Origin: Ulva prolifera
Lineage: Eukaryota > Chlorophyta > Ulvophyceae > Ulvales > Ulvaceae
Direction of reading: 5' to 3'
Assembly (NCBI GenBank): GCA_023078555.1
Contig: CM041196.1
Coordinates: forward strand, 9,318,985-9,382,984
Length of the DNA stretch: 64,000 nt
Shown here: positions 2,273 to 58,158 of the stretch, one piece after another
Numbering within the stretch: position 1 is the stretch's first letter
Layout of the letters: every line of letters starts with the position of its first letter
The notes under the pieces: model-generated
Seen by the model: only the letters and a program-made list of their open reading frames with translations
The model's database searches: none
What the model was told of the DNA's origin: nothing
Translations under genes and position numbers: made by a program

Positions 2273-5160
2273 TCATGAACAAACATGTGAATGCGCACCA
2301 TAGTCGGTGGTGTGGATCTGGGTCAGGGGGGCCAGCACGCCCGGCAGCTGCGCCCTTCCCGGTGACTCCTGTCGGCCCACGTTCCCCGCCAACCTCAGCA
2401 CGCGCAGGCCGGCCAGGCTCCTCAGCGCCTGGGCAACAACGACCACACCCTCCAGACCGAGCCCGAGGTCCGAGATGTCGAGGCGCTCGAGCGTCCGGAA
2501 CCGCTGCACCAAGGCCGCAAAGGCGCCGACGCACTGCAGCCGGACGGCCGCCCCCGCCAGCGCCAGGCGCCGCAGCGGCACCTCCCCCTCCGGCCACGGC
2601 TCCAGCAGCGCCGTCAGCACGGCGGCCACGCCGGTGTGAGACCCGGAATTCCCCCCAATGTCAACCCGCGTCAGGCGCGTGAGGCGCGGCAGCACGGCGG
2701 CCACGATGCTCAGCGCGCCGTTGCCAAGGCCATTGTCTGCTAGGTCCAGGGTCTCCAGGGCCGGCATGTCTGCGAGCAGGGCCGCGAGGTCCTCTCCCTG
2801 GTCCCCTCTGATGCTGCACCGCCGCAGCGGTGCCTCAGTCATCCGCGCCAGCAGCGCCGGGTGGGTCTCCTGCAGAGTGCTGTGGAGCGCCGCCACGTTC
2901 TGGTCCTTGCGACGCGTGTCGCCGCTCCTCGCGAGATCGAGCCCCCCGACCTGCAGCCTCTGCAGCGCCGTGAGCTGCGTCGCGCATGCGAGCGTCGACA
3001 TGATCAAGTTCGGAAACGTATACGTGTAGTAGTCCAGTTCCAGCTCGAGGTGGAGCTCTTGAAGCTGCAGCATCTGTGGCAGCTTCTCGAACAGTGTCGA
3101 ACGGTGCCAGTTGTCACACTCAAGCTGCAGCAGCTTCAGGGAGGTGAGAAGGGGCAACTCCAAAAGGTCCCCCAGTGCCATGCGGCCTTGCATCCAGCGC
3201 CCCCCCCCACCGTGTGTGCAGCCTCTCATGCGTACTGCGACGAGCTGACTCAGGCTGACGACGCCTGCTAGCAGCTCCCCAGACAGCAGAGCGGCGCCTG
3301 AACCCCTCGGGTGTTCATCGACGCCGATGCTGAGCCGCTGGAGGGCCGGGAGGCGGTGTAGCGCTGAGACACATGCCGGGACGTGCAGGGTCTCGATGCT
3401 TGGAGCGTCCAGGCTCAGCGCGCGCAGCGTGCGCAGCTGCGCCAGCGCATGCATGTGGCGCCCCCGCGGAACCTCCTGCTCGGAGGAGCCCCGCGCTACG
3501 TCCTTGCCTGGCAGGTGGAGCTCCAGCCTTGTGAGGCTACCGCCTGGCAATCCAGTGCACCACAGCCACTCACCGCCGCGCGCGCGTGGAGCCTCTGCCG
3601 GCACGCGTGCGGCAGTCACAGCGTCTGAGGAGCTCAGTACAGCCTGGCTCGCGTCTTCGAGCATCCCCAGGCCTTCCTGTGCGATCACCCGGCCAGGATC
3701 CGATGGATCCGCAACGTCCAGCTTCCGATCATATACTTCCTCGAGGCTCCCCCAGGCAAGAGGGACAGCCGCCTGCAGGAGGTGGAGGGTGAGAGCTGCC
3801 GGCCCGAGGCCGCGCGCGGTGGCGCCGCCGCGCGTGTGCTCACTGATGACGCATCCGCGGTTGTCCTCCGGGAGCATGCAGTTCGTGAGGACGATGGCGG
3901 GGTGGAAGGTGCGGGGAAGCAGCTGCAGCAGGCGGGCGGTGTGGTGCTGCGGCTGCAGGGGGCAACGGGGAGGGCGGGGGGTGAGCCGGCGGTGGATGGC
4001 TTGCAGCATGCGGAGCACGGCGTCCTGTGGCATCGCTTCCACGATCTGCAGTGCACGACTGTGTCATGGGCTGGTGGAGCCACACCTACATGGTCTGTGG
4101 TTCCCTGCACAACAGTGTTGGTTCGGAGAGAGGGCGACTGATGTCAATCACTTTTTGATGACTGTAGCCAGCAACGAATGGGCCGATGCATGGAGGACCT
4201 TGTTGGAAGCGTGTTTAGAGCCGGGAGAGTGAAACATCGTCACGTGAAGCCATACACACCTTGCACGCCCTGGCCTGCTCAGAATCGGTCGATACTGCTG
4301 TCCCCAGGACTGCGGCGCCGAGCCTCTCAATCACCGTGGCAATTGTGTGGTGGTCCCGAAGAAAGTCCGCGGCCTACATGCGCATGCATGTGTCATGGTG
4401 TACTTCAGCGGCGCCTGTTCTCTGTGCTCTGGCAAAGTGATTGCCCGCTACGTCCGTGCAAAGTGCTGTATGGATCACCGGATCGAGCTGCACAGGAGCT
4501 TGTGCCGTGCATGGCTTGGCGCTCGTGCATGAGATACACAAACCCAGAATTTCGTGAATCAAACCAGATGGACGAAAGCGACAGGCAGGTGTGAGAACGA
4601 CTCTGACGAGCACGAGGTTGGCACATGCACATAGCCAGAGGATAGCTGCAGCTCCGGTGCATGGCAGTGGCTTACTTTGAACGAGAATGCCATGGCCAAT
4701 GTACTGTTGAGAGTTCACGCTGCTGGCCAGCGTCGCAGCACGAAATGCTGGCGACATGAACTCGCGCAGTGCCTGATGTCACACATGGATGGCGATCGTG
4801 ATCCACTGCGCGTCGCACCTTTAGCGCATGCAAGAGCACTTCGTCGTCGACGAGGCCAGAAGATGCTGCGCCTAATTGATCGTCCGTTTGATTTCGAGTG
4901 TGAGCATCACAGCCGTCTGCTGCACTTGCAAGGTCGCTCTCTGCGGCGGCGCATTGCAGCCAGGCATCCACCTCTGTCGTTGACAATGGCAGCGGCAGGA
5001 GAACGTCCCTATCTTCTTGCTTACGCAGATCCATAATTAATTCGCTTCGCAGAGCTATTGCGGCAGGAATGGACAGCGTCCCTGACCCGCAGAGGATCGA
5101 CGCTGCTGCTTCGCCCAGACACAGGTTCAGGCAGCCTGCTGTATGCACAGCTTCGTCCAT
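2273..5160 (-). CDS. Copy A: Skp1/BTB-like N-terminus fused to leucine-rich repeats
   Basis: Three coding exons on the minus strand: 5160-4819, 4373-4260 and 4045-2273, joined by GT-AG introns of 445 and 214 bp, both phase 0. Predicted protein 742 aa. Residues 1-114 give the Skp1/BTB-like pattern: an N-terminal strand region, SIPAAIALRSELIMDLR, then LPLPLSTTEVDAWLQC, ending LLHALK. Exon 2 (38 codons) begins AADFLRDHHTIATVIERL, like the helix after the BTB core in Skp1. Exon 3 begins IVEAMPQDAVLRMLQAI, has LLQLLPRTFHPAIV, then leucine-rich repeats such as ALETLDLADNGLGNGALS. The start is the ATG at 5160, which aligns with the starts of other copies. By analogy with Skp1/BTB proteins it may dock a cullin and use the repeats to choose a partner; this is inferred. 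The last 600 bp are copied at B. Confidence 0.8.
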
Positions 5161-7298
5161 TGCAAAGGTGATGTCAATAAATCAACGCTTCAAGTGGTTG
5201 TCCGAGATACAGTTTGGCTACTTAACGGCTGGCGAGGCTGGCTGGCGCTTTCGACTTCTGGCGTTCGTTTTACAGATCCGCCTTCACACGAGATCAAACT
5301 TTGACACTTACTGAAGCCTGTGCTGAATATTTTGGCAGCGTATATGGCCATGGGCGCTGTAGTTTCCCACGGCAACACCATGCATCATCACACTGGTACT
5401 GCCCCCGGGGCCTGGCTTCGAGACTGCGCCGAGACGCAGCCAACGTGCCGAAATTCAGCAATACAGCAGGAGCAGCAGCAATTGATAACACTGGAGATTG
5501 TCGCCGACGTTGTTGGGGTATGGGGATGCACTGGAAACTTGGAGCTTAGCTGTAGCGCTCGCAGCGCCTGGACGCTCCATCCAGCCACACTGTGCGCGGA
5601 GGCCTTTTGCGCCGAGTTCTGATGTTGCTAAGTCACCTGAACGTAGGCTGTTATTTGGGAATCTCACACGTTCACAGCTGTGAAGCAGGGATGCATACGG
5701 CAAAAGCGCCACTGTCACACGCCCGTGACATTGTGTATTCTCCACAGAATGGCGGTCACTACAACAGTGACGATGTGCCTTGGCATGCAGCTGCTTGTAG
5801 TACATATGCTGGACCCTGCTGTTGACACAATCAGGCACAAAACGCCTCAGCTAGCTCCAGAGCATCACGGTTTTCAAGCTACCAGGCATTTGGCTGTACT
5901 TGTCTGGTGCTGGGCGGCTACAACTGTCTGAGATTGCTGCCGCCTCTGGACTGTTGTGGCTAATCGCCAGTAGCAGCCCGGCTGTAGATATAGAGCTGCA
6001 GCTGTGGGTAGCCTGGCATCTGTATATACTCCCAGCAGGGATCTGAACATCCACGCTCAAGTCGAACTGCGCATGCAAAGCATCAATTTTGCAGCACGCG
6101 AGACTGGCCATGGGTGCAAAGCTACATTCCAGTGGACAAGGCCTTTTCAGGCGGAGGAAAAGAATGTTGCAGACATGGTCCATTCATGTGAGACAGATCA
6201 CTGTACAGACCATATGGAATATTTGACCTGCTCGCAATTGCTGTCATCTTTACTTTCATCCCCTGGCTGCAGCAATATCTGCCACTTCCACTTTGAATGT
6301 CCTTTTGCATGCAGCCTAGGTAACCGTGACCGTCACGCAGTGTGCACATGCCACGTAAGCTCATCACTGAATCAGAGTGCACTAGCCTCTGTACATATTC
6401 CATAATGCCTATCCTTGACTGCTGGAAGGCGACCTGCACACACCACACAGCCATGCGCAATCAGTCAAGAAAGCAATCCCAAGCCTTGCCAATGGAAAGT
6501 CAGTGTTTAATGATAACTGTTCTGTAGCAGTGCTTCAGAAAGGCCAATCCGTCTGTAACACAGTCAAGAAAGCAATCCCAAGCCTTGCCAATGGAAAGTC
6601 AGTGTTTAATGATAACTGTTCTGTAGCAGTGCTTCAGAAAGGCCAATCCGTCTGTAACAGGATCCTCAGCAGGAGGTGTGCTGGAGGTGAACTGACGCTA
6701 TCACACTGGAACTACGTCACACACAGAGATCACCACACGTGAGAGGGAACACAACATCACTACATGTCCACATGCATGTACAAGTTTGTACGAAGCTCAC
6801 ACATGCGGATCCAAGGCGACAGTCTGTTACGAACGGGGCTGCCAGTGGCTAACACCACCACAACAGCAAGCAGCATTCGCTGCACGCATCAAGGCAAGCA
6901 CAGGCAAGAAGCAGAATGCACCTGCGCCACAGCAAGCAAGCAAGCAGCAGCGGCAGCGGCACCCGATGGAGGGCTTCTGCTGGAAGTTGTCCATGCACGG
7001 ACCGCCCACTGTCCGGCATGGATCTCACCTGCACAGCACATTGTGAATGCCCAAACTAAGGCCGTGGTACAGCTTGCGTATGCATCTTGAACACTGGCCG
7101 CACGCAGTGCTATGCCGCTGCCAGCCTGAGAGTGCCCTGACACGCAGCAGCACATGCGGAGTCTCCTGCATCATATGAAGAGCTGCATGCATGCATGCAG
7201 GGCAACACGTCACTCCGCATTGCAGGCCCTGCCCTTGAGGTTGATGGTGGCCAGATGCATCTGCGACACAGCACATTCCTAGCAACTCCGCATTGATA
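5161..7298. other. Intergenic stretch between copies A and B
   Basis: No gene could be supported here. The reading frames are short, overlap on both strands and lack motifs. A 99-bp tandem duplication (6462-6659) is the only clear structure. Low-complexity CAGCAAGCA-type repeats occur near 6860-6960. Confidence 0.5.
6462..6659. repeat. 99-bp tandem duplication, two copies
   Basis: The unit beginning cagtcaagaaagcaatccc is present at 6462 and again at 6561 with almost no differences. This implies a recent duplication. It lies outside any supported gene. Confidence 0.9.
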
Positions 7299-7429
7299 CT
7301 AGGCCGCATGTACGCACATGCATGTGCGCATCACTCCGCCAGCTGCCGTGCACGTGTAGAGGCGAGCAGAGGGCTTCCGAACATGTTCGCCTGTACAGGC
7401 GCAGGCCCCGACCCTTGTGCTCACAAGGT

Positions 7430-8063
7430 GGCTTTCACAGCAAGTTGGTGAATGAGGCGCACCGTAGTCAATGGTATAAACTTGCGTCAGGGGGGCTATA
7501 CCACGCCCGGCAGTTGCGTCCTCGCGGCCCATGTTCCGCGCCAACTCCGGCACGCGCAGGTGGGGCAGGCTCTGCAGCGCCTGGGTCACCACGGCCACAC
7601 CCTCGACCCTGAGCCCGAGGGCGGAGATGTCGAGGTGCTCGAGCCTCCGCAACCGCTGCAGCAATTGCAGCGGCTTGCAAGGCCGCCACATCACCAATTA
7701 ATATTATATAATATTAATGCGTTGCGGCTGCGCGGCCGGCCCCGCCAGCCCCAGGCGCCGCAGCGGCACCTCCCCCTCCGGCCACGGCTCCAGCAGCGCC
7801 GTCAGCACAGCGGCCACGCCGGTGTGAGACGCCGTGTGTCCCCCGATATCAACCGACGTCAGCCGCGTGAGGCGCGGCAGCACAGCCGCGACGGCACGCC
7901 GCCCGCCGTTGCCAAGGCCATTGTCTGCTAGGTCCAGGGTCTCCAGGGCCGGCATGTCTGCGAGCAGGGCCGCGAGGTCCTCTCCCTGGTCCCCTCTGAT
8001 GCTGCACCGCCGCAGCGGTGCCTCAGTCATCCGCGCCAGCAGCGCCAGATTGGCATCGCGCAA
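7430..8063 (-). pseudogene. Copy B: 3' fragment of the Skp1/BTB-LRR family, copied from A
   Basis: About 620 bp closely match the 3' end of copy A (roughly 2290-2870), including the repeat that reads ALETLDLADNGLGNG and the C-terminal LTQVYTIDYG (LTQIHTTDYG in A). No exon 1 or exon 2 is found upstream. Similarity stops near 8055 and continues into unrelated sequence. The reading frame is interrupted near 7700 by an AT-rich insertion containing a 22-bp perfect palindrome, so the two halves read in different frames (7704-8063 and 7299-7697). It is best read as a partial segmental duplication that never formed a complete gene. Confidence 0.8.
7697..7718. repeat. 22-bp AT-only perfect palindrome
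   Basis: Starting attaatattat and returning as its exact reverse complement, this palindrome sits in the middle of GC-rich leucine-rich-repeat coding sequence of fragment B. Copy A has nothing like it at the matching place. It may be a footprint of a small insertion. Confidence 0.85.
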
Positions 8064-8163
8064 GTGCTGGTGGAAGCTGATGACTGCTCACGATTCTCTC
8101 CCGCGCTCGCACACGCTGTCACACTGCGGCACCCCGGAGGAACGGTAACGGGAGGCGACAGAG

Positions 8164-8302
8164 TCAATCATCTTCAATTTCATCATCATCTGCTTCACCC
8201 GATTCCAAATCTGATTCATCGTCATCTTCGTCACCCGATTCCCAGTCTGCACCGTCAACAGCATCCTCTTCATCATCATCTGTACCTGCACCAACGGAGA
8301 CC
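8164..8302 (-). other. Acidic low-complexity open segment
   Basis: On the minus strand a frame ending with TGA at 8166-8164 encodes a run rich in Asp, Glu and Ser (for example DWESGDEDDDESDLESGEA). It is preceded by a possible acceptor (ttggtgcag, near 8285). It could be the acidic terminal exon of a small gene or a GAT/GAA-rich simple repeat. No partner exon was found upstream. Confidence 0.3.
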
Positions 8303-14439: not shown

Positions 14440-14622
14440 GTGTGTCGGCCGTGGGGTCTGTGCGTGCGTGTGTGGGTTCGGGTTTGTGGGTGTGTGGGTG
14501 TGCGGGTGTGTGCTTGGCGGTCTGCGGATCTGTGTCTTTTGATGCGCCAGTGGTGGGTCTCCTGGGCGTGGTGGGTGTCGCGTGCGTGCGTGTCTGTGTG
14601 TTTGCTTCGTCTGTTTGCTTCT
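14440..14622. repeat. GT-rich low-complexity tract
   Basis: Irregular tgtg/gtgcgtg repeats dominate about 180 bp. Open frames across it on both strands are compositional artefacts. It abuts the 3' end of the LINE insertion. Confidence 0.6.
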
Positions 14623-14814
14623 GTATGTATGTAGTTACAAAGGACAGAGGCCGGGCAGCGAGCCGTTGCCAGGAACACACACGCAAATCCACTCACGCAG
14701 TCATGGCACTAGGCCGGTGTATGTATGTAGTTACAAAGGACAGAGGCCGGGCAGCGAGCCGTTGCCAGGAACACACACGCAAATCCACTCACGCAGTCAT
14801 GGCACTAGGCCGGG
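14623..14814. repeat. 96-bp tandem duplication at the LINE 3' end
   Basis: The unit beginning gtatgtatgtagttacaaag starts at 14623 and again at 14719 and is nearly identical. It covers the last part of the LINE (minus strand) plus the gtatgtatgta motif that also flanks the other end of the element. It either arose during insertion or is a later slippage product. Confidence 0.85.
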
Positions 14815-16580
14815 CACGAGCACGTACCACAGCTCGGCCGGTGATGCCAGCCAAAGATCGAAGCCCCGCACGGAGCACAAGAGCATTCCCCTTGCACAAC
14901 GCCACACTCAACCGGCGCAGAGCATTCGTCACAAACAAAGCACGGTTCACCTTACCACACCGAGACGCAACCTCCGCCAGCCGATTCAAGTGATTCATGG
15001 CAGGCCGCCCCAAGCGACCATGCGTCTCATGCGACAACGGCACGAAACTATACGCATCAGGGTCGTACAAACGATAAGCAGTGCGTTTCTGCACGTCCCG
15101 CGTCTCCGCAGCACCCCCGTCCTCGCGGGCCGCACGGCCGCAATAGGAACCAGCACAGGGGTTCACAACCGACACATCTCCTATGCACAAAGGGTCGCCC
15201 GGCGGCATAAACATGATGTCCCCCAGTTTCTCCTGGGCCACTGCCCTGAACACCTCATCCAGCGCCGTTGCCTGCGCGGCAGCGGCCTGCTCCCCAGGCC
15301 CCGCTGGACCCTGACCACCCGGCGCCGCCGCCGCCGCCAGGGCCGCAGCCTGCGCTGCGTCTGGCGCGCGGCGCCCCATGTGGGCGCTGTGTCCAGCATC
15401 GGCGTCGGCGGCCGGAGCAGGCGTAGGTGCCGGCGCCTCGTCCGCGCGCGCGGTCGGCGGCGGCGGCGGGGCTGCAGGCATCGGCGCCGCGGGCAAGGCT
15501 GCCCCACGCGAAGGGCCCGCGACCTGGGAGGCGGGCTGGGGCGGAGCAGGGGGGGGCGGGCCCAACGGGCCAGCATGGATCTGCCTCGATGCGGCCGCGA
15601 GCTGCGCGCGGACGAACGGCGCTGTGCGCGGGATGCGCGTGGATGCCACACACGCGTGGGACCCGATCTCGCGCCATTGTTTTTCAACGATATTGTGGCG
15701 CGAAGTCCAGGTCCCCGCATTGTGTGTGCAATTCATCGCGTGATCGAGATCATGCGGCTGTATGAGAGTGCCACATTCGCAGCGCGAGCCGACCGCATTG
15801 GGAGGGGCTGGGGACATGCCCAGGAGATACCTGATGCACAGCATGAACTCAATGTCAGTCATGCGCAGCGCCTGGGAGAGCGGCAGGGTGCTCAACCAAA
15901 GGGTGGCTGCACGGCAAGCACAGCTGCGAAGCCGTGCCAAGTTGCATGCACCCTCGAGCGTGGCGACGTCATGGCTGGCAAGCAGAGCTGCCCGGCGGCG
16001 CAGGGCAACCAACTTTGTGATACGCTGCTGCATACCAGGTAACACCTTGGCGATGGTGTCGCCGCTCGCCGGCCCGGGCAGCTCCGGATGGAGCTGCTGA
16101 GCGACGTTGAGGGCCTGCCAGGTTTCCTGCAATTGTTGCCCGTGCGGCCCCCGGTACGGCTGCATGCACTCGGGGCCTCCTGCGAACGCCTTTTGGCTCA
16201 CCGCCGCTGCAGCGAGGTACGCTCCGTCCGCGACCTCCTGCGGCGTGGACGTGACGCCCAGGCCTCCGAGGCGCGCTGGAAGGATGGCTTGTGCGGCCGC
16301 ACGAGTGTCGTCCCGCGGGACGCGCATGATTTCATTCACCGCAGCCAGGACGGACGCCTCCGTCCGGCGCATGTGATCGGAAATGTGCGCCCACGGCACC
16401 GCCCTGGCGTAGTGCAGCATACGGCGTTGGCAGGACATCGTGAGCAGCAAGAACTGGTCTTGCGCTTTCAGGGGCAAGCGCATCATCTTTTCGATGGTGG
16501 CGCACACCTTGTCGGCCGTCGCTTCCGCGTGCGCCGACTCGAACGCCGGGGTGCCGATGGGCGTGCCGGTATGTATGTAT
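14623..16580 (-). mobile_element. 5'-truncated LINE: RT thumb, zinc knuckle and restriction-like endonuclease
   Basis: On the minus strand an open frame (about 16570 down to 14789) encodes the C-terminal part of a non-LTR retrotransposon polyprotein. First comes the reverse-transcriptase thumb region (TGTPIGTPAF, then LPARLGGLGV). Next is a Cys/His cluster, CECGTLIQPHDLDHAMNC. After a Pro/Ala-rich linker comes a restriction-like endonuclease pattern: IGDVSVVNP, then KRTAYRLYD and YSFVPLSHETHGRLG. The catalytic palm of the reverse transcriptase is missing, so the copy is 5'-truncated, as is usual for LINEs. The motif gtatgtatgta occurs at both ends (16570 and 14623/14719) and may be the target-site duplication. 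It sits in intron 1 of broken copy E. The preserved long frame suggests a fairly young insertion. Confidence 0.8.
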
Positions 16581-17436
16581 GCATGATTACACAGCCGTAT
16601 CCATTTGGACATTGACAACTCCGAAATCCGGGACCGAAAGAGGCATCCAAGCAACATGCTGCCGCAAACTCTGACTTGCGCCACAGAATGCAACAACACG
16701 AGCCAATTCACCGAGAGGGGACGGGCGATTTGCAAAACCCGACACCCCAGCATCACCACCAACACCATCAACACCGACAATAAGCACAACCGCTACATCA
16801 GACCACGAAACACCAGAGGCACTGTCATAAGGACCTGGCCGTGCGAGCAACTGCCGCACCAAAACCGCGTCTGTCGCGGTGCTGCCCGCCTTGCTGCGTT
16901 TGTCCTTGTAACACCGCGAGCAACAAGCAGAGGAACCATGCTATGTTTCAAACAGACAAGTTGTCTGAACCCGTTTGTACTGCGACACATCCTTGTTACA
17001 CTGCAGCTGCGGAGAGTGTCGTGAGGGCTGTGCACCAAGTATGCACGGAAAGGTTCTATACCAAATGGAGGATAAGCAGCGTTAGATAGAGACGAACCTT
17101 CAAAGCCAGTAATGACGTGTCATCGTGTGGCCGAGTCTCGAAACCGCTGCCCTCGTCCGTGCCGATTGAGTTGGCGCACGCAAGCCACGCTTCCACTTGG
17201 CGCACTGCCAGCGGGAGAGGAAGCACGATATCAGTACTGCCAGATTCAGCGGCCTCCTGGCGAAGGCCTTAGATCAGCTTTGACTGGTTGGCAGACAAGT
17301 AGGCCACATCGACATCCACCGGCCCGCACGCGAACGATACATGCTCCTCAGTGTCAGCAGTCGACTCCGCAAACCGGAGCTTAGCCAACTCTGAAAATAT
17401 TTCTGGTGACAGTACAGGCTGAGGGTCGCCAGGCAT

Positions 17437-31312: not shown

Positions 31313-31314
<2 letters not shown>

Positions 31315-31347: not shown

Positions 31348-31349
<2 letters not shown>

Positions 31350-41301: not shown

Positions 41302-44300
41302 GTATGCGTCTCCGCTCAAGCTGCCATTGACTGATTCCGCAGTGATCATCTGGGCGGGCCCAGTGATCTGGAGGTGACAGGCCCCGTCTCACAGAGAAGC
41401 GCACTGATAGCTGGCCTCCGCGAGCAGCTCCATGACAATGCAGTCACTGTGCCGCTGTCGCTGTCATGGGAAGATGCGCAAGCATGGTTCGCCTGTGCCG
41501 AGGGACAGGAGCTCGCAGGTTCTGTGAGCACAGCCTGCGGTCATCAGAAACACGACGCAGCGGCAGACCGCGATGACCACCTCCTACGCGCCCTGAAGGT
41601 GAGCTCAAACAAACGTCGTATTCCTGAGTAGCATAAGCCACTATGCCATACTGTTCGTGGGCCGGCCGGGGTTGGTGCCTCGCCGCTAGCGAGCTCGCGT
41701 GTGTGCTCAGTGCACTGCTCACGTAGGGCTGTCCCGTAATTCCTGGTACGATAGATTCACAAGACCTCGGGCCAATGCAGAGTCAATGCTCGAATAAAAA
41801 AAATACAGCAAGACCGGCATCCACGCGAGTAATTCCCGGTTGTGTCCCAGATTCGACTTCCAAGCTCTTAGCACCAACGCTGCGATGTACCGGCAAGGCA
41901 CTATTGCTAGCTGTGTGCATGCTACATGGCTACGTGAGCTGCCTATGCACGATAGTGCTCATTCCCATACGGAGGTCGCACACGTCTGTAAATCAGACCG
42001 GCCGTCTCGAGCAACATCCATGAGCACTGGCAGGCATCAGCACCCTCAGATGAAGCACACCACTGTGCAAGAGACCAAGGCACAGCATCACCTGCAGCAC
42101 CGTGCCAGCCTCAGCACCGCCAAACCGTTTCATGCGGCACTGGCAGTGCACCCGGATCCAGTGGTGGTTTGAGGATGGGCAGATGATGCACAGACATCCA
42201 TGGACATCAATCGTGCCCGCACAGCGCTGCGGCCTCTGACAGCGTGTGGCAAGAGTGGGTGCAGGCTGCGGACTTTCTCCGAGACGAGGCCACCATCGCA
42301 CAGGTGACAGACGCCCTCGCTGCGCTGCTGATTGAGTTCACCGCCAGCGACCCGTCAGTGAAGGAGCGGGCTCGGGCTGCAAAGGTGTGACCTGACACGA
42401 CTTATCTGTGGCTATTTGGGACCCCTCTGAAGTGGTAATGGTATTTTCAGTTTGGTGGGTGCTGCGCGGTGGCTTCAGCTAGCTAGCGCATGTGTGTGCC
42501 GACCGGGGGGCGTGGGGGGCGTGCTGACAGCTGCACGCAAGCGGTGGACTACGCCGCAATGCGCGTGTTTGCTCTCACAACGCGCATGCTGATAGCATCC
42601 GGAATTGCTTCGCGGACGACTATCTGCACACGTACAAACCTTCGTCCCCAAGAGACACCCCTGTGCGCTGCTGCTCGTGTTTTCAAGCCACGGCACGGCC
42701 GGGTGTGCAGATCGTGCGCGCCGTGTCCCATAGCAACGTGCTGGCCATCCTGGCGGCCGTGTGTGAGCGAACCACCCCCTCCGCAACCAGCATCAGCCGG
42801 GCGCCAAACGGCCACGCGCCCAGCCGTCCGTAAAGGGCCCCCTCGGCCCCTGTCGGGCGGCTGCTGCAGCTGCTGCCCCGCAGCTTCCACCCGGCCCTCG
42901 TGCGCACATGCTGCCTGCACCCCACTGACAGGCGCTCCTGTGACCTCTGATCTCGACTCGGACTTCGGGATAAGCATGTTGCCAATCGATGATGAAGAGC
43001 TGACGCAGCTCCTCGCGGCGGCCGCGCCGCTTGCGGGGGGGTGCAGGGAGCTTGCACATGCATGTGTCCCCTGCACACATATAAGGAACGAGCGGCAGCC
43101 TCGACAGGGAGACCCTGCCGCCGGCTCCAGCGCGCTCGCCGTCGTGCATGCATGCGGCGAGGGCGCGGAGCCGGGGTGCGGGCCAGAGTGGCGGTTGCCA
43201 CAGGGGGCCTGCCACGTCTGCAGCTCAGCATTGATGGATCACGGCAACCAAAACCCGCTAGCTGGTGCAACGCGCTGGCGCACCTCCGCACGCTGCAGAC
43301 CCTCGCAGTCGAGGTGGCTGAGGGGCCGCTCCGGAACAGCATGCCCGACTTCATGGCGGCGCTGCGGAGCCTGCCCGCCCTGTCGCACCTCTGCATCAGT
43401 TACGATGAGTTACGTTACAGCACCCCGCCGCACGCTTCAGCATCGAGCTCCGCAGTCAGCGATGGTGGCCGGCTGCTGCGGGAGGGTGTGGCCGCGCTGA
43501 CGCAGCTCCAGTGCCTGGACCTCGACCGCTGCTTCAATGCTGCCGTGAGCCCGGAGAGCGGGATCACAGCGCGCAGCTGATGCAGCTGTCGCGCCTGCCC
43601 GCCCTGGCGCACCTCTGCAATAAGTACAAAGGCCTACAGTACAACGTCCCAGTGGAGGTGACGGTCCCACAGCACGATTCAACCTCACACTTGCAAGGTG
43701 GCGATGGTGATCGGCTGCTGCTTGAGGGCGTGGCCGTGGTGGCGCAGCTCCAGTCCTTGGACCTCGACCGCTGCTTCAATGCAGCTGCAAATCCTCAGAG
43801 TATGTACGGTGAGTCGACAGGGCGCGCCCTCGCGCAGCTGCCGCGGCTTTCGCGGCTGACGTGTCTGCGCTACACCGGCGCAGCCAACGCGTCGAAGAAC
43901 GTGCAGCGGCTGGCAGACTCTATCAGGAGTCTCGCATCTCTACAGGAGCTATATGTTGGTCTGCTCGGGTGCAAGAGCAGGAATGTTCGCTTCGACCGAG
44001 CACAGGCCGAGCCCGCTTCTGCGCAAGCTGGTCTACTGCTGAATTTGTTTGAGAGTCTAGGGCTGCCCCCGCTGCAGCATCTTGAGTTGGGTGTGGGAAC
44101 AGCCGGGCATGGAACTGGCGGACGGCGGGTACATATTGGTCATATGCCGGTGGCAGAGAGCCATGCATGTATGCGCAGGCACAACCCGGCGCTGCTGACC
44201 CGGCTGACCGGCCTGCGGCTTGGCCTACGCACAGTATGTCTTGCGGTATGTCTCGTGGTGAGGTGTGTTGCCGGCAGAGCAACAGCGCCGGTCGGTGCCG

Positions 44301-44869
44301 GTCGGCGAGGCCCGCTGCTCCACAGCAGATCATGTATCAGGGCCGCACCGAGGCGGCGCTGCTCGCCGACACGCCGGCGCTCCGCTCCCTGCGCTTGAAT
44401 TCATTCGTGGCATGGTCAAGATTTCATCCGTTTTTTTTTTCGAGAGGACTTCTCTTGCATTAACGCGGTGCTTCCGGGCATGTCCGGGCTGACGCGCCTC
44501 GACATCAGCTGCTACGGCGCCAACGCCGAGGCCGTGCTGGCGGTGCTGACCACTCTAGCCCGGCCCGGAATGGCGTGGTGTGAGGGGCTGCGGGACCTGG
44601 ACATCGGGTTCAACACGATTTGGCTGGAGCATGCGGAGGAGCTCGCCGGGTTGCTGCGGCAGTTCCGCGGCCTCGAACGGCTGGGCATGCAGAATCTTAG
44701 CCTTGGTGGCCGGCCCGGCCTGGAGGCCTTGGGGGTGGTACTGCCTGCTGTGGCTTGCCTGCCGCGGCTGCGGGCTCTGGATGCGGCGTGCAATTGCAGT
44801 CCGCCGGACCTGGAAGCTGCCTGGGACCTGGCTGCGGGCCCTGCGCATGTGAGTGATGTTCAATTGTGA
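41302..44869 (+). pseudogene. Copy H: broken Skp1/BTB-LRR gene
   Basis: Exon 1 (about 41302-41599) has SQRSALIAGLREQLHD and VPLSLSWEDAQAWFAC and ends LLRALK. A one-base loss near 41350 shifts the frame relative to the matching sequence in copy I. Exon 2 (42265-42384) is intact and begins AADFLRDEATIAQVTDAL. Exon 3 starts at 42711 (IVRAVSHSNVLAILAAV) but soon shifts frame before the LLPRSFHPA block. Leucine-rich repeats then continue in several frames (43041-43580, 43511-44398 and 44468-44869), with a deletion near 43560 and further shifts near 44250 and 44440. A repeat unit appears duplicated at 43580-43790 (LEGVAVVAQLQSLDLDRCFN). The C-terminus WDLAAGPAHVSDVQL matches copies I and J. At least four frame breaks make a working protein unlikely. 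Confidence 0.78.
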
Positions 44870-45555: not shown

Positions 45556-48500
45556 TCACACAGACCTTGCCGCGACCACCTCCACGCCCTGCACCTTCTC
45601 GTAATGCGCCAAGCCACACTCGTTTAGCCCGTGGCACATGAATCCCCGTGTTGCAACACCCCCTGGCACCCCCTCCACCTTGCACTCGCTGAAACAGCTC
45701 TTCTGCGCCAGTGCTGCCCTCTGCACATGAAACCCCACTAGACACCGGGCCACGTCAACCCGCCGAGCCGTCACCACGCCGTGCTTCGTCACAGAAACCC
45801 CTATGACGCTGCAGTCACGCACCTGAACCGCGTCAAGCGTCGCGTGTGTCTGGGCCCCCTCATGCACGCACCGGGCCCCCCGCCCCTCCGCCGCGCCGCG
45901 CGCGAGCAGTGCGTCCCATGCGTGCTGAACCGCCTCCGGCCCTGACCGCCCGCAGACGCCGCACGGCGCCTCGAAATCGCACGGAGCTTCCCCAACATGC
46001 ACTCCCGTGGTACACTGTGAAACCTGTGTGTCTCGCACCGTCATGGCCGCTCCATCGGAAACATCCACTCCGATTTCCTGCGCGGCAACGGTGCAGTGTA
46101 GAAGCGACGCCGTCTTCTGCACCCCGGCCACCTGGACCCCCCTCCACGAGCTTGACAGATCACAGGAGACAAGCTTCAGCTCCCCGCTGCCAGACGCGCA
46201 TGCTCCAGCAGCGCATGTCCCACCATGAGCTTTGACGCGCTTTGCGTGGAGCGTGCCGCCGCCTTGCCCCACAAGCAGTGCCACTGATCCAGCGGAGCAT
46301 TCGCAGTCCTCCGCCACAAGCTTCCCACCACTTGCCGCAAAAAAGCCACACCCTGTGGCGTGAATCTCGCAGTCGACGACGGACATGCTCGCGCCGCCGC
46401 TCGCAATGAAGGCCTCCTTTACTCCCGCCCCCACCGTGCACTTCCTGACTGCACATGTAGCCACTGGCACGTCTGCAATGACGGCAATCTCTGAGCGCGA
46501 GAAGCGGCACCCCTCAAATGCAGCGTTTGCGCGTATCCGCACGCAGCACTCCCGGTCCCCTGAAGTAGGCCCCTCAAACGAGCACTCTTCGATTTTCACA
46601 GACACGTGCGAGTCTACAAAGATGTCCTGCATGTTGTCGCGGAAGGTGCAGCCCCGCACAGCCGCCGCCTGCACGCCGCAGAGCGAGAGGCCACCTTCCA
46701 GTGTCGTGTGGTCCTCACAGCGCGCAGCGAGATACGCACGGCTCGCCGCCCGTATGCCCGCATGGCCCTCAAAGCGGCACCCGACCAGCTCGGCGCGGGC
46801 CGCCTCGTGCGCCTGCACTGCCCGGCTATACCTGGTCAGAACTACTCCATGCATGCGCAGATCGGCCTGGGTCCCCCCGCCGTTCGGCGCGGCTGTGGTG
46901 AGGACGCCAAACATGCAGTCCTCCACCGACCCACCCTCCACGTCGATCTGCCCGCCACGACAGACGTACGCCGTAGGAGCATCGGTGACGAGCGGCTGGT
47001 CCACATGTTCAGACTGCCGGGCCTTCGCAGTTCCGGTCGCAACGGCGGTCATGTTGGCGACGCGCGAGTCCTTCATTCGCGCCCGGCCGCAGTTCACATG
47101 CATGCCCATGTAGCCCTCCGGGATGTTGCAGCGCAGGAAGCGGCCGCACGCGCCCTCCTCCACGACAACGGCCGCGTCGCGCTCAGTGACGCCCGGCCCC
47201 GGCAGCATGCCGCCCCGGAAGCACACGTCCACCGCTGCGACTTCGGCGCCGCCGCTCGCCACGCAAGCCGGACCCACAGCCTCGAGCTGCCCGCCCTCGA
47301 TCCGCAGTGCCGCGTCCGCACAGTTGACGAAGCAAGAGACCTCGTTACCGCGGGCGTCGCAGCGTGACACCACCGCCCGGCTGCCACAGCCATGCACTAC
47401 CATACCGTAGTAGCTGCGCAATCGGCACAGCAGCAGCGCGGCGGCACTGCCCTCCCCGACCCTGACCGCCAACCCGTCTCGGCTGCGCACGTCGCAGCGC
47501 GTCATCTGCAGCCGCGCCGCCCCGCGCGACCCCTGCGGAGGCGCGCGCTCCAGCCTCACAGCGATTGCATCTGGATCACCCTGGCCACGGAAGTGGACGT
47601 CCGACATCGCACCCTGGGCGCCCTCCGCCAGAGTGCATGCCTCAGCGCAGCGGATGCTGGTCTCGCACACTTCCAGTGACGCTGTGGCACCAGTGGCATC
47701 AGCGGCGCGGCGAAAGCCAGTGATGTGGCAACGGCGCATGTGCGCCGTGCCGCCATGCATGCACAAGCAGGTGCCTTCATTTATGGTGCAGGGGCTGTTG
47801 GTGCCCTGGCTGCCGGTGCCGGTGAGGGCGCAGTCATCGGTGGCGATGTGGCTACCGGGGTCGTTGGCAATGATGGCGGTTGCGACGGTGCCGAGAAGCT
47901 CGGAGGCCTGCAGCGCGGCGGAGGCGCCGGCTTCGGCGATGACGCAGTAATGGCAGGTCTGGAAGGAGCAGCCGGTGAGGGTGGTGGTGGAGGCGGGGCC
48001 GTGGGCGATGAGCGCGGCGAGGCAAGCGTGCCAGGCGCAGTCAGAGAGGGCCACGGCGGCGCCGTGCACGACATAGAGCGTGCACGCGTAGAAGGTGCAC
48101 CTCTGGAAGCTTCCGCGGAAGTCTGGGCCGGCACATATGACGGCGCCGCCTGAACCGAGCAATGGATGATGTCGCAGAGCGGCCAGATCGTGCGATGGAT
48201 ACATGCGCATTGGTAGAGCAGATGGGCTTGTGGTGGATGCAGTTGCTGAGCGACAAGGTCGATTGCAACCTATTTCTGAGTCATGGCCTGGTTCGGGGTG
48301 CACCCCATGGCAGCAGTCTCGTGGGTCAGGGCTGCCAGGACGAAGACAACATGATGTCGCACTCAGAGTGATTTTTGCGCTTGTGCATGGATCTGATGGA
48401 TTCGCAAACTGTATTTTGTGGATTTGGTGACCGGTCGGCCCTGGCAATGAGTTCAGGCAACTCTGAGCGGGCCAACCACTCGCACGACCTAATAGATGAC

Positions 48501-49558
48501 AGCGATGCAGAGATCTTGGCCTCTCGATGCGAGGACAGACTTAAGCCAGTGCAGGGTATCACTGCACGCCATATTATAGAACATGATGCACCAGCGGTGA
48601 TGGGGACTGCGATCGAGGACTGCGACTGGATCAACGGCGTCTTTGCGTTCCCCAAAGGTTGCAATGCTCCCTTGGAGACTTGCGCCTATCATGCAATGCA
48701 TGCGGCAGCTTGACCTCTGGCAAGGGAGGCCGCACCAATGAAAGTGGTGTCCCTGAAGTGAGCTCCTTTGCCAGACAGCAGGAACACGCCGTTTTGGGCG
48801 ATTTTGATGGTTCCCCGCAGGACAAACCCGCCAAATGTGGAGCACCTCCAAACAATGAAGGTGCTCAGCAGGGCCTGCGCCCCGGTGTCGTGCGCTTCAT
48901 GGCCCAACTCGGGCGGTAGGATCACATGAGAATTGCCGGACGAGACCCGACGTACCAGGTCTTCAAGCGACGCCACATCGCCCTGCACTCACACATACGA
49001 TAGCTGTGATAGATGTTACCTTGTGTGAATCTGTCGCAAGAGCTGGTGCATGCGTAGGTGAACACTGATCATGATCAAGTATCCTGCAGCTGTGACATCC
49101 GAGACGTAATTCCCGCCTGGTAGCTCCATAGGGCAAGATAGGCTCCATAATATCAGCCAAAACATCGATGTCGGTGTGGAATTGTTTGTTCGTGGTGAAG
49201 ATCTCGGCTGTTTTACCGAGGCATCCATCGCGGCAAGCGGTCGCGACAGCCAGCCAGGTTCAACGGGTGTTGCATATGTAGCATCTCTGATGCAATATAA
49301 CGACAGAAGACTCACCGGGTCTCGTGTGGGATCTGTCAGCGCTGCCGACTGGGAGCATGTGGCGACAGTCCACGTCAGTTCGGATGTTGGCACCCGGTCT
49401 ATGACGGGTGTTAGCGCCCCGGCACTGCCACAGCCACACTTGACACAAGCCACTGGAACATGGAGAGCAGCAGGAGGCTGGGATACAGTTGCGACGTGGC
49501 CGCAGGTGTGGGCGCGGATAGCACACTCTCCGCGAGTGATCCAGCATTCTGTAGACAT
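45556..49558 (-). CDS. RING-like Cys/His motif plus right-handed beta-helix protein, gene 2
   Basis: Minus-strand exons 49558-49316 (243 bp), 48982-48736 (247 bp) and 48149-45556. The GT-AG introns are 333 and 586 bp with the same phases (0, then 1) as gene 1, and the joined frame is open. Predicted protein 1027 aa. Exon 1 starts MSTECWITRGECAI, aligning with MSFESW of gene 1, then has CGHVATV, CVKCGCG and DRVPTSELTW. The Cys three residues after CGH in gene 1 is missing here, so the metal site is weaker. Exon 2 begins GDVASLEDLVRRVSSG and starts the helix (GKGAHFRDTTFIG). Exon 3 is about 860 residues of beta-helix turns (for example VICAGPDFRGSFQRCTF). Near the C-terminus APCGVCG and CVHEGA match gene 1. 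It faces gene 1 across HCF106 and copy H and is clearly its paralogue. Confidence 0.85.
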
Positions 49559-50204: not shown

Positions 50205-53200
50205 ATGTGTCTCCGCTACAGATGTGCTTGTCTGAAACCGCGGTGATGGTTCTGGGCGGGCCCAGCGTCCTGGAAATCCCTGTCTCCTGTGCGAGCGGAA
50301 GCGCGCTCATGGCTGACCTCCTTGAGTTCATCAATAAAGTTTAATTCACTGACCCATTGTCCCTGTCGTGAGACGACGTGCAGGCATGGGTCGCCTCAAC
50401 CGAGGGACAACACCGCTGGAGCTGGGCCCAGTTGCAGAAACAAGGCGCAGCGACAGATCGCGAAGCGATGCTCCCGCGCGCCCTGAAGGTGAGTTGAAGT
50501 CAAGCCATATGACATATTCCCGCGCTACAGCGGCCACTGTGTCTTCCGTTCTTTATCGCTCAGGCAGGTCTGTTTCGAGGTTCCTGCAGACCACGGTGTC
50601 GATTCCAGGCTTGCTAAAGGTTCCAGCGTTGATATTTCGTCACTGCTGGGTCAGGCCACGGCAGGTGGCGATGCACGATCGCAACCACACCCGCATGGAG
50701 CTCGCAAGCAGCAGTGCATAAAGCAGCAGTGCATGGACTGACCGCCCCAGGCAGCAGCAAGCCTGTTGACCTCTGGGAGGCAGCGTAACACTCTGGGGTA
50801 GCGCATCACTGGTGGTGGTAAGGGCAACATACGGCATGAGTGCGAGCTCCACCAAGCCATCTGCACCACAGCGGGCTGTTTTTCACCACCTTCAGATTTA
50901 CTTTACCTTCACCTGCATGCATGGGCGCTGACTGCTCCGGGAGGGGCAGCGCATGCGCAGACGTTCATGTACCCGGACTGGTTAGCACACAGCGCCCCGG
51001 CCCCTGCGGCCTTGTCATCAATGATTGTAACACACACAGCGCCGTGGCCCTTGACGATGTCAGCCGCGGTGCGTGCAGGCTGCCGGCTTCGTCCGAGACG
51101 AGGCCACTGTCGCACACGTGTCCGACGCCCTCGCTGCATTGCTGGTTGAGCTCACCGCCTGCAGCTCGTCATCACAGGGGCAAGCGCGAACCGCCCAGGT
51201 GCGGCCTGAGTCTGCTCACATGTGGCTCCGAAGGCCACCTGTGCTTGATGTGGCTAATTTCCATCTTGGGTGCACAGTTGCAGCAGAGCACGTGTGTGCC
51301 GACCAGGCCGATCTGTACTGCACAACTATAGGCATGTGACATCTGCGACTTAAACCGCCAATGTTGACCTGGCCCTGTAAAGACACATACCAGACCATGT
51401 TCCCCACAGACAACCGTGTGGTCAGCTGGTCCACTGTTCAAACCAGACAAGGCCAGGTGTGCAGATCGTGCGAGCCGTGTCGCACAACAGTGTGCTGGCC
51501 GCCATGGCCAACGTGTACGAGCGAAACCTCCCCCTCCGCAACCAGCATCAGCCGGCCGCCCAACGGCCACGCCCCCAGCCGTCCGTAAAGGAACCCCTCG
51601 GCCCCTATGTCGGGCGGCTGCTGCAGCTGCTGCCCCGCAGCTTCCACCCGGCCGTCGTGCGCACATGCTGCCTGCACCCCACTGCCAGGCGCTCCTGCGA
51701 CCTCCGGGCGCTCGACACAGAGCTAGGACTGAGTTCATTTCTGCTTGATGATGAAGAGATGACGCAGCTCCTCGCGGCGGCGGCGCCGCTTGCTGGGGGC
51801 TGCCTGAAGCGCGCATACGCATGTGCCCCATGCACACCTGCGGGAAAGCCCGAAGCCTCAAGCGATTGTGCCAAGCAACAGCCTCGTCAGTGTGACCCCA
51901 CAGCCGGCTCCAGCGGGCTCGCCGGTGTGGATGCGTGCGGGGACGACGCGGAGACGGGGTTCGGGTCAGAGTGGCGGCTGCCCGAGGGCGGCCTGACGCG
52001 GCTTCAGCTCGGCGTCGATGAGTCACGCGAACCAAGCACCGCCCACTGGTGCACGGCGCTGGCGCAGCTGCGTATGCTGTGATCGCTCGCAGTCGAGGTG
52101 GCTTCAGGAGCACTCGGGGGCACCATGCGCGATTTCATGGCGGTGCTACGGCACATACCCGCCCTGGCGCACCTCTGCGTCAGTTACGATGAGTTACGTC
52201 ACAGCACCCCGCCGCACGCTTCAGCATCGAGCTCCGCAGTCAGCGATGGTGGCCGGCTGCTGCTCGAGGGTGTGGCCGTGCTGACGCAGCTCCAGTGCCT
52301 GGACCTCGACCGCTGCTTCAATGCTGCCGCGAGCCCGGAGAGCGGGACGCGTGGCCTCACAGCGCGCGCCCTCGAGCAGCTGATGCAGCTGTCGCGGCTG
52401 AAGTGCCTGCGCTACACCGGCGCGGCCGTTGCGTCGAAAAACGTGTGGTGGCTGGCCGATTCGATCAGGCGGCTCCCCTCTCTGCAGGAACTGTATTGTG
52501 TGCCGGTGGCGTACAAGTCTTGGGGCGGTGTGTCCGGCCGGAGTTTGGCCTCGGGTTGAGCCCGGCCCTGCCCGAGCAGGCCTGCTTCTGAATCTGTTTG
52601 AGACCCCAGGGCTGCCCTCGCTGAAGCATCTCGAGATGGGCACTGCAGAAGCCAGGCGGGGAATCGTCAGGGTTCCGATAGAGGTCGGTCATCAGCCGGT
52701 GGCAGAGTGCCATGCATGTATGCGCAGGCACCACCCGGCCCTGCTGGCCCGGCTGACTGGCCTGCGGCTCGGCTCTGGCGTGTTTGGCTGTCAGCAGGGC
52801 TCTTTGGCGGAGCTGCTCGCCGACATGCCGGCGCTCCGCTCACTGCGCTTGAATTCAGTCATGGCAGGAGCGCAGAACTATCGAGCGAGGTCCATTTTGA
52901 GCTCGCGAGCATTTCGTACCTTGTCTGCCAGCCTGAGTGGGGTGCTGTCGGGGATAGTAGCTGCTATATATATAGGTATGCTTCTATATAGGGCTGTCAC
53001 GCCTCGATGTCAGCTGTTGCGGCGCCAGCGGCGCATCTGTGTTGGCGGTGCTGATGACTACTCTAGCCCAGCCTGGCACTCGAGTGTGTGAGGGGCTACG
53101 GGAGCTGGACATCGGGCGCAATGACATCAGGCCGCAGCACGCGGCGGAGCTGGCCGGCGTGCTGCGGCAATTCCGCGGCCTCGAGCGGCTGGGCATGCGA

Positions 53201-53377
53201 GATCTTGGGCTCGATGGGAGAGGTGGGCTGGATGGCTTGGTGGTGGTACTGCCAGCTGCGGCTTGCCTGCCGCGGCTGCGGGCTGCGGATGCCACGCAGA
53301 ACTGCGATCCTGTGGACGCGGCTGCAGCATGGGACCTGGCTGCAGGCCTTGCGCATGTGATCGGTGTTCAGCTGTGA
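50205..53377 (+). pseudogene. Copy I: broken Skp1/BTB-LRR gene
   Basis: Exon 1 (about 50205-50488) still reads LGGPSVLEIPVSCASGSALM but then meets stop codons (first at about 50342) before DDVQAWVASTEG and PRALK at a GT donor. Exon 2 (51079-51198) is open and begins AAGFVRDEATVAHVSDAL. Exon 3 starts at 51465 (IVRAVSHNSVLAAM), has LLQLLPRSFHPAVVRTCC, and runs to an in-frame TGA at 52080-52082. The same frame then resumes with LAVEVASGALGG up to 52559. After that it shifts frame, and a TA-rich insertion near 52965-52990 interrupts the repeats. The end (53039-53377) reads WDLAAGLAHVIGVQL. Sequence identity to copies H and J is high, so decay looks recent. Confidence 0.78.
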
Positions 53378-54998: not shown

Positions 54999-57900
54999 AT
55001 GGAGTCTCCTGTGGATAATGATCGTGTCAGTCTGCGCCTCACTCGCGATGCAGCCTCTGTGTCGGTCTCGGGCACGCCTGACGTTCTGGACATCCCTGCC
55101 TCCTGTGCGCGGCGAAGCGCGCTCATAGGCGACCTCCGCGACCAACTCGATGACGATACAGTCATCGTTCCGCTACCGCTGTGCTGGGATGAGGTGCAGG
55201 CATGGGCAGCCTGTGCATTGGCGAACGGCGCCACTGATATTGGCATCAGGGCCCTGACCAGCAGCGCCAAGGGAGACGACGCGGCAGACCTCGATTCCAC
55301 GCTCACGAGAGGCCTGAAGGTGAATTTGCCATATGATGTGATTTCTTTGGACTTGCGAAACGCACAATTCCGTTCTGTTCGCTGCATGGGGGAGCTTGGT
55401 GCTCAGCATGGATTGCTCAGACTGGGCTGTTCCGTGTTTCCTGCTGGCCATTAATTCGCTCACAGCTTTTCTCTGGTATTATGCTCTTGGCATGGCACTG
55501 CTGGTGTGCATGCTGGGCCAGCCCATGGAAGGCGCTGCAGATGTGCCTACCGGCATGGAGTTCGGACTGGCGGGGCATCAGACTGCTCTGAAAGAAGATT
55601 TAGTGGCACGTCTCAGCTCGCTGGCAAGCTTCTAAATTGTAAAACACCTGAAGGGATGCGCATTGCAATTTGCAATGTCCAAAGTCAAAGGCCATCGGCT
55701 GCGGGCCAGAGTAGTTATGTGTTGTTCTCATCCCTGAGAAGCACGGCGGCTCAGAGAAGCGGAGGGGCTCGCCTTGAGCAGGCCTGAGGCAAGCATAGGT
55801 CCATGTGTCACCGCATGAGAGTGTACATTGTAGCACTGTCCCTGACGCTGCTGGCGGGAGCGGGTGCAGGCTGCCGACTTCTTCCGAGACGATGCCACCA
55901 CCGCGCAAATCACTGCCACCATCGCACAACTACTGACTGCGTTCACAATCAAACCACCGTCTCCAAACGAGCAAGCTCGAGCCGGAAAGGTGCGGCCTGG
56001 AAGTGTACATGCCTTGCCATGCATCCGACTGACAGCTGGGCCGGGGATTGACAGGCAATCCGCACCGTGCTTCGCCGTCCATATGTAAGGTTCATGCACG
56101 ATCCAATTCACATCTTGACAGCATGTAGTGTTTGGCATGTCACGTGGAAAGAATCCACTTCTACATCGCCCCACGCGGGGCAGTCTGTGTTGTTGACACT
56201 GTAACTATATACCCGTCAATGGCAAATGCGCCTAACGGATCCCCCCGCTGCAGATTGTCCGGGCCATGTCCCACAGCCACGTGCTGGCCATCCTGGCCGC
56301 CGTGTACGAGAAAACCCATCCGGCCCGGGGTGCACCGCGTGAGTGGCGCGTTGGCAATGGTTTTCTTAGCTCGCACTTCCGTCCACGCCCACAAAACGTC
56401 TCTCTGGGGCCGTATGTCGGGCGGCTGCTGCAGCTCCTGCCCCGCAGCTTCCACCCAGCCGTCGTGCGCGCATGCTGCATGGACCCGGCCGACAGACAGT
56501 CGTGCGACCTGCGGGTTCGTGGCTCAAACCCGGATGATAGCATGTGGCACATCGATGGTGAAGAACAGCTGACGCAGCTCCTGGCGGCGGCAGCGCCGCT
56601 TGCTGGGGGCCGGCTAGAGCAAGGGTATGCAAGTGCCTCATCTGCTCGCGACGATGCCACTGGGGATGTCGGTTCAGGGGGATGTAACCTGCCTCGCGAG
56701 CAGGAACCCAGACCCCCATCAAGTGAACCCCCCGCCCATGCATGCGGAGAGCTGGGGTGCGGATCCGGCGCGGAGTGGCGGCTCATGGCGGGGGCGCTGA
56801 CGCGGTTGCAGCTGTGCGTCTACGATTGGCGCCCCAAGCGTCAATCCCCGGTTGCTGATGATCTGTATCTGCAGAACCAGGAGGCTACCCGCTGGTGCAC
56901 GGCGCTGGCGCAGCTCCGCACGATGCGGTCCCTTGCAGTCGATGTGATGTTTGGGAGGCTCGTGTATGGCATGGGCGATCTCACGGCCGCGCTGCGCAGC
57001 CTCTCGGCCCTCACGCACTTCCGCTTTAGATGCGTTGGATGCCTTGGCGTTCCCCAGGATGAGATCACCAGAACATGCGACTGGCAGCTGCTCGAGGGTG
57101 TCGCCTGGCTGCCCAAGCTCCAGTGTTTGGAACTGGACAGCTGCTTCGATATCGCTCCGCTCACAGACCGCGCGCGCCGTGAGCTCGAATCTGCAGCAGG
57201 CGCCATCAGGCAGCTGCCACACATGTCGCAGCTGACGTGTCTGCGCCTCATTAAGCTGGTGATCAGAACAGACCTAGTGCATGTCTGGGCTGATGCCATC
57301 AGGGAGCTCCCAGCTCTGCAGGAGCTCTGCATAGTCCTAGCAAAGTGCAACGGATCCGGCTTAATCCGTGAGATTACTGAGGCTGTCGCAGCACACGGAG
57401 TGGTGCTGCAGAGCCTGTTTGACGGCCCCGGCTTTGCGTCCCTGAGTCATCTCGAGATGGGTGTGGAGGCAGGCAGTCAGTACCGACAGATGAACAGTAG
57501 TGAATGCGAAGCGCTAGTTTCACACTTCTACCAAGGTGTCTGCACGCACAGCCCTGCTTTGCTGGCCAGGCTGACAGAGCTGCGTCTCGGCCCTGGCCTG
57601 TTTGGCTGCGAGCCTGAGGGGGGCTCTGTGGCGGCCCTGCTCGCAGACACGCCGGCGCTCCAGTCGCTGCGGCTGAATGCTGTCTCAGCGCAATCGCTCA
57701 AGCCCACATTCCGTACTGCTGGGCTCTTGAGTTCACGGGACCTCCTCAGCCTTGTACCCCTCCTGCCGCGCATGACAGGGCTGACACGCCTTGATTTCAG
57801 TTTCTGCGGAGCTGACGGCACGTCTATGCTGGCGGTGCTGACCGCTCTGGCACGGCCTGGCACTCCAGTGTGTGGGGGGCTGCTGGACCTGGACATCGGG

Positions 57901-58158
57901 TGCAATGACTTCGGTCGCCAGCATGCGGAGCTGGCCGGCCTGCTGCAGCAGTTCCGCAGCCTCGAGCGGCTGGGCATGCAGAGGCTGTGTGTCGTAGATT
58001 TGTTTGGCCTGGAGGGCTTGCGGGTGTTGCTGCCAGCCGTGGCTTGCCTTCCGCGGCTGCGCGCATTGGATGCATCGCAGAACTGCTCCAGCGCAGACAA
58101 GAAGGCGGCCTGGGACCTGGCTGCAGGCCTGGCGCATGTCAGGGATGTTCAGCTGTGA
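54999..58158 (+). CDS. Copy J: Skp1/BTB-like N-terminus fused to leucine-rich repeats
   Basis: This is the clearest intact copy. Plus-strand exons 54999-55319, 55870-55989 and 56254-58158, with GT-AG phase-0 introns of 550 and 264 bp. Predicted protein 781 aa. Exon 1 (107 codons) starts MESPVDNDRVSLRLTRD, then has IPASCARRSALIGDLRD and VPLPLCWDEVQAWAAC, matching strand 1, helices 1-2 and strand 3 plus helix 3 of a Skp1/BTB fold. Exon 2 (40 codons) begins AADFFRDDATTAQITATI, where Skp1 has its AANYL helix. Exon 3 begins IVRAMSHSHVLAILAAV, then LLQLLPRSFHPAVVRACC and LTQLLAAAAPLAGG. Around ten leucine-rich repeats follow (for example LTRLDFSFCGADGTSMLAVL), ending AAGLAHVRDVQL. Its neighbours H and I are broken close relatives. 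I do not know a named family with this order. Confidence 0.85.

Follow-up and report, generated by a model that had tools for sequence, protein, structure and literature searches.

The 64,000-nucleotide window analysed here (Ulva prolifera, contig CM041196.1, positions 9,318,985 to 9,382,984) holds a tandem group of genes in which a Skp1-type POZ domain, encoded by exons 1 and 2, is joined in one predicted polypeptide to a helical segment and to leucine-rich repeats (LRRs) of the ribonuclease-inhibitor type, encoded by exon 3; the group is part of a large family that we judge, on balance, to consist of one-chain cullin adaptors. The family has a common gene plan and many copies, its Skp1-type domain is under purifying selection and resembles Skp1 in profile comparisons, and its LRR fold appears in a structural model.

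Searching the window by tblastn with pieces of the copies located exons 1 and 2 at eight places (copies A, C, P, D, E, F, G and H) and exon-3 sequence at nine (Table 1). A preliminary description of this DNA had listed nine loci with the same order of motifs; the quoted motifs and the exon 1–exon 2–exon 3 order are present in the DNA and seven loci keep the whole order, but P is without most of exon 3, and locus B gave LRR matches only in this search, which found no Skp1-type exons there. Its count of five intact copies was correct, as A, C, D, E and H are open once their exons are joined, and copy H is probably the copy that it called J. Copy C carries a divergent C-terminal tail beyond the last shared LRR, and in copy E a 12/24-base repeat in exon 3 (27544–27772) gives an NGG-rich insert between joint and LRRs. 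Among the broken copies, exon 1 of F is an open frame without ATG, exon 1 of G is open only from 50372, and intron 1 of P houses an open reading frame (ORF) of 667 amino acids (14789–16792, minus strand) that by eye resembles a long interspersed nuclear element (LINE) and is without a Pfam match.

The genome searched comprises 88.9 Mb in 44 contigs and has intron-bearing genes; it gave 34 chlorophyll a/b-binding matches at E<=1e-5, one of which fits PDB chains of green algae and plants, named 'chlorophyll a-b binding protein, chloroplastic', over all 168 residues, as befits a green-lineage genome. Exon 1 of copy E matched 40 places at E<=0.01, three of them carrying a stop, distributed over contigs C1 (24, seven of them within the window), C9 (nine) and C3, C4, C5 and C8 (seven together), and exon 3 of copy C matched at least 63 places at E<=1e-5, with 64 candidates scored out of 159. 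Thirty of the 40 exon-1 places (L008–L037, window copies included) were scanned with 1.5 kb of flank and with hidden Markov models (HMMs) built mainly from window exons; 27 of them gave a downstream match to exon 2 and 24 a match to exon 3. The pair L034 (C1:9438408) and L035 (C1:9481966), 43.6 kb apart and 99.5% identical over 3.2 kb, is a recent duplication; in one of them exon 2 begins in a frame other than that of its HMM match. Two of the seven initial LRR_6 loci are, on the sequence evidence, distant members of the family. In L073 (contig C2) the exon 2 border reads CTGCAG/GCTGCGGAT (the slash marks the splice border) and exon 3 starts like that of the family before continuing into clear LRRs (LRR_6, 69.7 bits). 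L094 (contig C7), first met as the plain LRR_6 match L003, has an exon 3 start found by the exon-3 profile (best-domain E 8.1e-7), an exon 1 upstream (E 3.4e-9 with an HMM of five window copies in a 6-kb stretch) and an AAHFL exon 2 between them; its joined exons matched no POZ family in Pfam. The other five LRR_6 loci gave no significant family-HMM match within about 1.5 kb on each side, and no relatives turned up on prokaryote and viral contigs in single-protein scans, which detect close relatives only. By a rough tally from exon-by-exon searches, the 40 exon-1 matches compare with 18 F-box-like matches, four BTB matches and one canonical Skp1, a scale that points to a major receptor system in this lineage.

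The splice borders follow one pattern. In the window copies exon 1 ends in ..LK/GT in phase 0, the codons of AADFL, or of a variant, follow the AG acceptor of exon 2 (CAG/GCTGC, with TAG/GCCGC in A, CAG/ACTGCC in C and CAG/GCTTCT in E), and exon 3 starts at GCAG/AT with I as its first residue, every join being in phase 0; in copy H, splicing of exons 1 and 2 brings together ..STLTRGLK/AADFF... Because the window copies share only 30–50% identity with the top row of their alignments and nonetheless have the same splice phases, the shared gene plan exceeds what chance would give. Of 34 rows that contain both exon 1 and exon 2, some of them overlapping one place, a scripted donor rule passed 26 and failed eight, among them L019, L023, L026 and L028, which plainly read on with V = GT. 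The rows that pass have AG as first acceptor in 25 of 26 cases, and CAG precedes exon 3 in 22 of the 23 rows containing it, while the exon-2 donor, set as the first in-frame GT, is less sure than the other borders. The splicing of exons 1–2 to exon 3 is a prediction from DNA. At L029 (C1:6386297 region, minus strand) CAG/GC is read where the exon-1 donor should lie, which may mean a GC-AG intron or a decayed splice site.

The relationship of exons 1 and 2 to Skp1 was assessed with a 25-sequence profile built from the exon-1 loci L008–L037 and L073, from which P (L012, broken), L014 and L033 (exon 2 not found), L031 and L036 (no donor by script), L035 (the 99.5% copy of L034) and the broken copies F and G were omitted; all 25 joined sequences agree with their DNA. 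Profile–profile comparison by hhalign with Skp1 was run in four set-ups, of which two left out the distant member L073. The scores were 32.6, 38.2, 31.9 and 25.2, and in each none of 150 column shuffles scored as high; the corresponding probabilities were moderate (62, 85, 57 and 14%). In three of the set-ups the alignment starts at the second strand and reaches the last POZ helix, and the L073-led alignment covers the first 47 columns only. Comparison with BTB reached 12.0, which 22 of 150 shuffles equalled or bettered, and 15.5, with 3 of 150, over 11–16 columns and out of register, against a set of four sequences only, to which Skp1 itself scores 18.8 and 20.2. These four are the matches of a genome search with PF00651 at E<=0.01, and no known copy of the family is among them. 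A classical BTB domain was rejected for lack of an in-register alignment with these four sequences, and an Elongin C type was rejected too (score 15.9, 2 of 150 shuffles, only 12 columns; 16.0 and 2 of 100 in another run). By these profile comparisons the POZ domain is nearer to Skp1 than to classical BTB.

Exon 1 of L073 alone matches Pfam Skp1_POZ at 22.5 bits, above the cut-off of 21.9, and its joined exons score 21.3 bits, just below it. When 993 chains were aligned to a structural model of exon 1 made from window sequences only, the first four rows were all Skp1 chains, at low Z. The preliminary description had assigned a Skp1/BTB fold by pattern and proposed a structure search and a profile search of the joined exons 1–2; the ranking of the model and the hhalign scores, together with the L073 match, support the assignment as Skp1-type. 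The window copies have no direct Pfam match, a five-window-copy profile found no match in a PDB sequence search, the same search with L073 gave only a designed scaffold (E 1.3), and the best Foldseek row for the exon-1 model is an unrelated protein. Furthermore, the C-terminal F-box-binding helices of Skp1 are not recognisable in the family at the sequence level: PF01466 has two genome matches at E<=1, both in the canonical Skp1, and the local hhalign alignments stop at Skp1 residue 125 of 157 or earlier. A common intron as proof of descent from Skp1 was rejected, the introns of the genome's Skp1 lying after ..SSDE and ..FGIE and not before AANYL.

The coding character of these exons was evaluated from the proportions of nonsynonymous (pN) and synonymous (pS) differences and their ratio (omega). 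In the joined exons 1 and 2 of the 25 copies pN was below pS in 300 of 300 pairs, in agreement with the earlier statement that the family is under some selection. Among the 25 closest pairs, drawn from 276 pairs with L028 left out, omega was 0.21–0.46 in 24, the remaining pair (L020 and copy H, L022) giving 0.75. For the 21 exon-3 sequences pN was below pS in 210 of 210 pairs, and omega was 0.43–0.65 in the 14 closest; this test is crude, and the ends of four of its 21 sequences (L041, L045, L051 and L058) do not coincide exactly with the exon border. Since pN is below pS throughout and omega mostly lies below that of exon 3, the Skp1-type exons are most likely translated and maintained, under tighter constraint than the LRRs. 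No diversifying selection on the LRR strands was seen in this crude test, strand positions in the 14 closest pairs (210 in all) giving omega values of 0.27–0.90; the only value above 1 in the exon-3 test was 1.03, in one pair, for inserts that vary in length.

Exon 3 of copy A was modelled with a mean predicted local distance difference test score of 69; in the model three helices come first, then a segment of poor prediction, then an LRR solenoid. Foldseek placed ribonuclease inhibitor closest, with TIR1 in the list, and FBXL2 stood first in the Z list (23.0), tied with many other LRR proteins. A clear F-box before the LRRs was not found by profile comparison of 28 exon-3-start rows (the L029 row having a wrong first residue) with 16 of the 18 F-box-like matches of the genome; the scores were 13.3 (0 of 150 shuffles as high) and 12.9 (2 of 150), over just 15 columns, in the right place. 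The predicted three-helix joint of copy H may be F-box-like in outline. It is conceivable, though doubtful, that the three-helix start is a worn F-box, in which case Skp1, F-box and LRRs would share one chain, their contact would be intramolecular, and the arrangement would have expanded to at least 40 loci, outnumbering the F-box matches.

Judged by analogy with the fold, cullin docking, a ubiquitin-ligase role and substrates may be expected of these proteins. The POZ domain would dock on a cullin, Cul1 or a relative, through its conserved tip, AANYL in Skp1 and AADFL in the family; the helical joint would stand in for the Skp1–F-box contact; and the LRR solenoid would bind the substrate for ubiquitination. 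Through tandem duplication, with copies born and lost, the genome would then gain many receptors independent of the single free Skp1. Three cullins are present in the genome. Of the 25 copies, 22 have D at the docking tip and 24 have F or Y, and the Elongin C of this genome reads D-Y at this position; N108 and Y109 of Skp1 are the residues that we take to touch Cul1, a contact for which our literature search found no paper.

Other explanations deserve weight. The Skp1-type domain might serve dimerisation or scaffolding without cullin docking, the LRR proteins acting outside ubiquitination, which we hold to be unlikely; more radically, and very improbably in our estimate, exons 1–2 might contain no Skp1/POZ domain at all, the resemblance being due to chance or to convergence of a small alpha/beta domain. 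A one-chain cullin adaptor is made less secure by results that agree with one or other of these views: for the former, the unrecognised C-terminal part of Skp1, a docking tip only partly as in Skp1, with D for N, and the close pair with an omega of 0.75; for the latter, the missing direct Pfam and PDB sequence matches of the window copies and the unrelated best Foldseek row. The former is, however, opposed by the good conservation of the tip and by the stronger constraint on the Skp1-type exons than on exon 3, and the latter by the shuffle controls, the greater closeness to Skp1 than to BTB, the Skp1_POZ match of L073 and the four Skp1 chains heading the structural ranking.

It is also possible, but improbable, that this is a diversifying recognition family, immune or for self/non-self, in which the LRRs experience changing selection and the Skp1-type domain sets off degradation or signalling. 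In its favour stand the tandem arrays that include broken copies, the recent duplication (99.5% identity) and the lower constraint on the LRR exon, and the idea is biochemically compatible with a one-chain cullin adaptor; the omega values of the LRR strands and the isolated 1.03 speak against it, within the crudeness of that test.

The genome's own Skp1 (L071, C3:342061-341416) is closest, among solved structures, to SKP1-like 1A, 1B and 20, which are plant proteins. The family shares with Skp1 the POZ core, the order of strands and helices, the AANYL/AADFL tip and a variable insert after helix A3, which has been described for Skp1 (PMC1257465). Unlike Skp1, a separate small protein with C-terminal F-box-binding helices, it has an LRR exon following and other intron positions. 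FBXL2 and TIR1 are LRR receptors of Skp1–cullin–F-box ligases and bind a separate Skp1 through an F-box; the exon 3 model has an LRR solenoid like theirs, whereas no clear F-box was found in the family. As in the Kelch and MATH BTB receptors of Cul3, adaptor and receptor stand in one chain, but the POZ domain is nearer to Skp1 and LRRs replace Kelch or MATH.

BTB and LRRs in one chain have a bacterial counterpart: 43 such proteins in strain UWE25 (PMC1257465) and, in the PEX1 family of Parachlamydiaceae, 73 BTB-LRR proteins shaped by gene birth and death (PMC4209131), these bacterial proteins being described as likely host-directed. Compared by description, both families combine an N-terminal BTB-fold domain with C-terminal LRRs and undergo birth and death on a large scale, whereas the genes of the present one contain introns and belong to an 89-Mb genome that also encodes chlorophyll a/b-binding proteins. 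The earlier claim that a docking-like fold and an LRR receptor occur in one gene is supported as a Skp1–LRR combination, while a BTB–LRR chain is not new as such. Skp1 and Elongin C are described as almost exclusively bare folds (PMC1257465), and the apparent novelty here lies in the domain being of Skp1 type, in the eukaryotic host and in the family size. Literature text searches of titles and abstract openings, which do not prove absence, found no Skp1-LRR protein. If true, a natural fusion of this kind would mean that an adaptor–receptor contact can become covalent and then expand like a receptor family; it would provide a one-gene substrate receptor for a cullin ligase and help to ask what a separate Skp1 is for.

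Table 1. Family loci in the window and the parts of copy H (positions are those of the window; aa, amino acids)
Feature	Position	Strand	Parts and remarks	Product
Copy A, intact	5160-2273	-	exon 1 5160-4819, exon 2 4373-4260, exon 3 4045-2273	742 aa
Locus B	7440-8186	-	C-terminal LRR fragment alone	
Copy C, intact	12061-8559	-	exon 1 12061-11789, exon 2 11283-11155, exon 3 10640-8559	827 aa
Copy P, broken	17400-13823	-	exon 1 17400-17098 with stop, exon 2 14119-13988, LRR scrap 13969-13823	
Copy D, intact	23422-19268	-	exon 1 23422-23108, exon 2 22685-22560, exon 3 21127-19268	766 aa
Copy E, intact	24766-29216	+	exon 1 24766-25080, exon 2 26238-26357, exon 3 27072-29216	859 aa
Copy F, broken	41335-44869	+	exon 1 41335-41598, exon 2 42265-42384, exon 3 from 42711, frames shifted	
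Copy G, broken	50216-53377	+	exon 1 50216-50488, exon 2 51079-51198, exon 3 51465-53377, frames shifted	
Copy H, intact	54999-58158	+	exon 1 54999-55319, exon 2 55870-55989, exon 3 56254-58158	781 aa
Copy H, Skp1-type POZ domain	55020-55989	+	exons 1 and 2; intron 1 55320-55869	
Copy H, three-helix joint (predicted)	56254-56500	+	start of exon 3; borders rough; helices modelled in copy A	
Copy H, leucine-rich repeats	56750-58158	+	start rough; fold modelled in copy A	

Between the copies lie two single-exon ORFs, 34829–37447 (plus strand, 872 aa) and 45556–48540 (minus strand, 994 aa), both carrying repeats of the right-handed beta-helix type (PF13229; E 7.8e-33 and 3e-25, respectively), possibly a second local family. 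A LINE-like piece with an endonuclease/exonuclease domain (PF03372, E 8.5e-14) occupies 58851–59639 on the plus strand, and perfect two-copy tandem repeats occur at 6462–6659 (99 bases) and 14622–14813 (96 bases).
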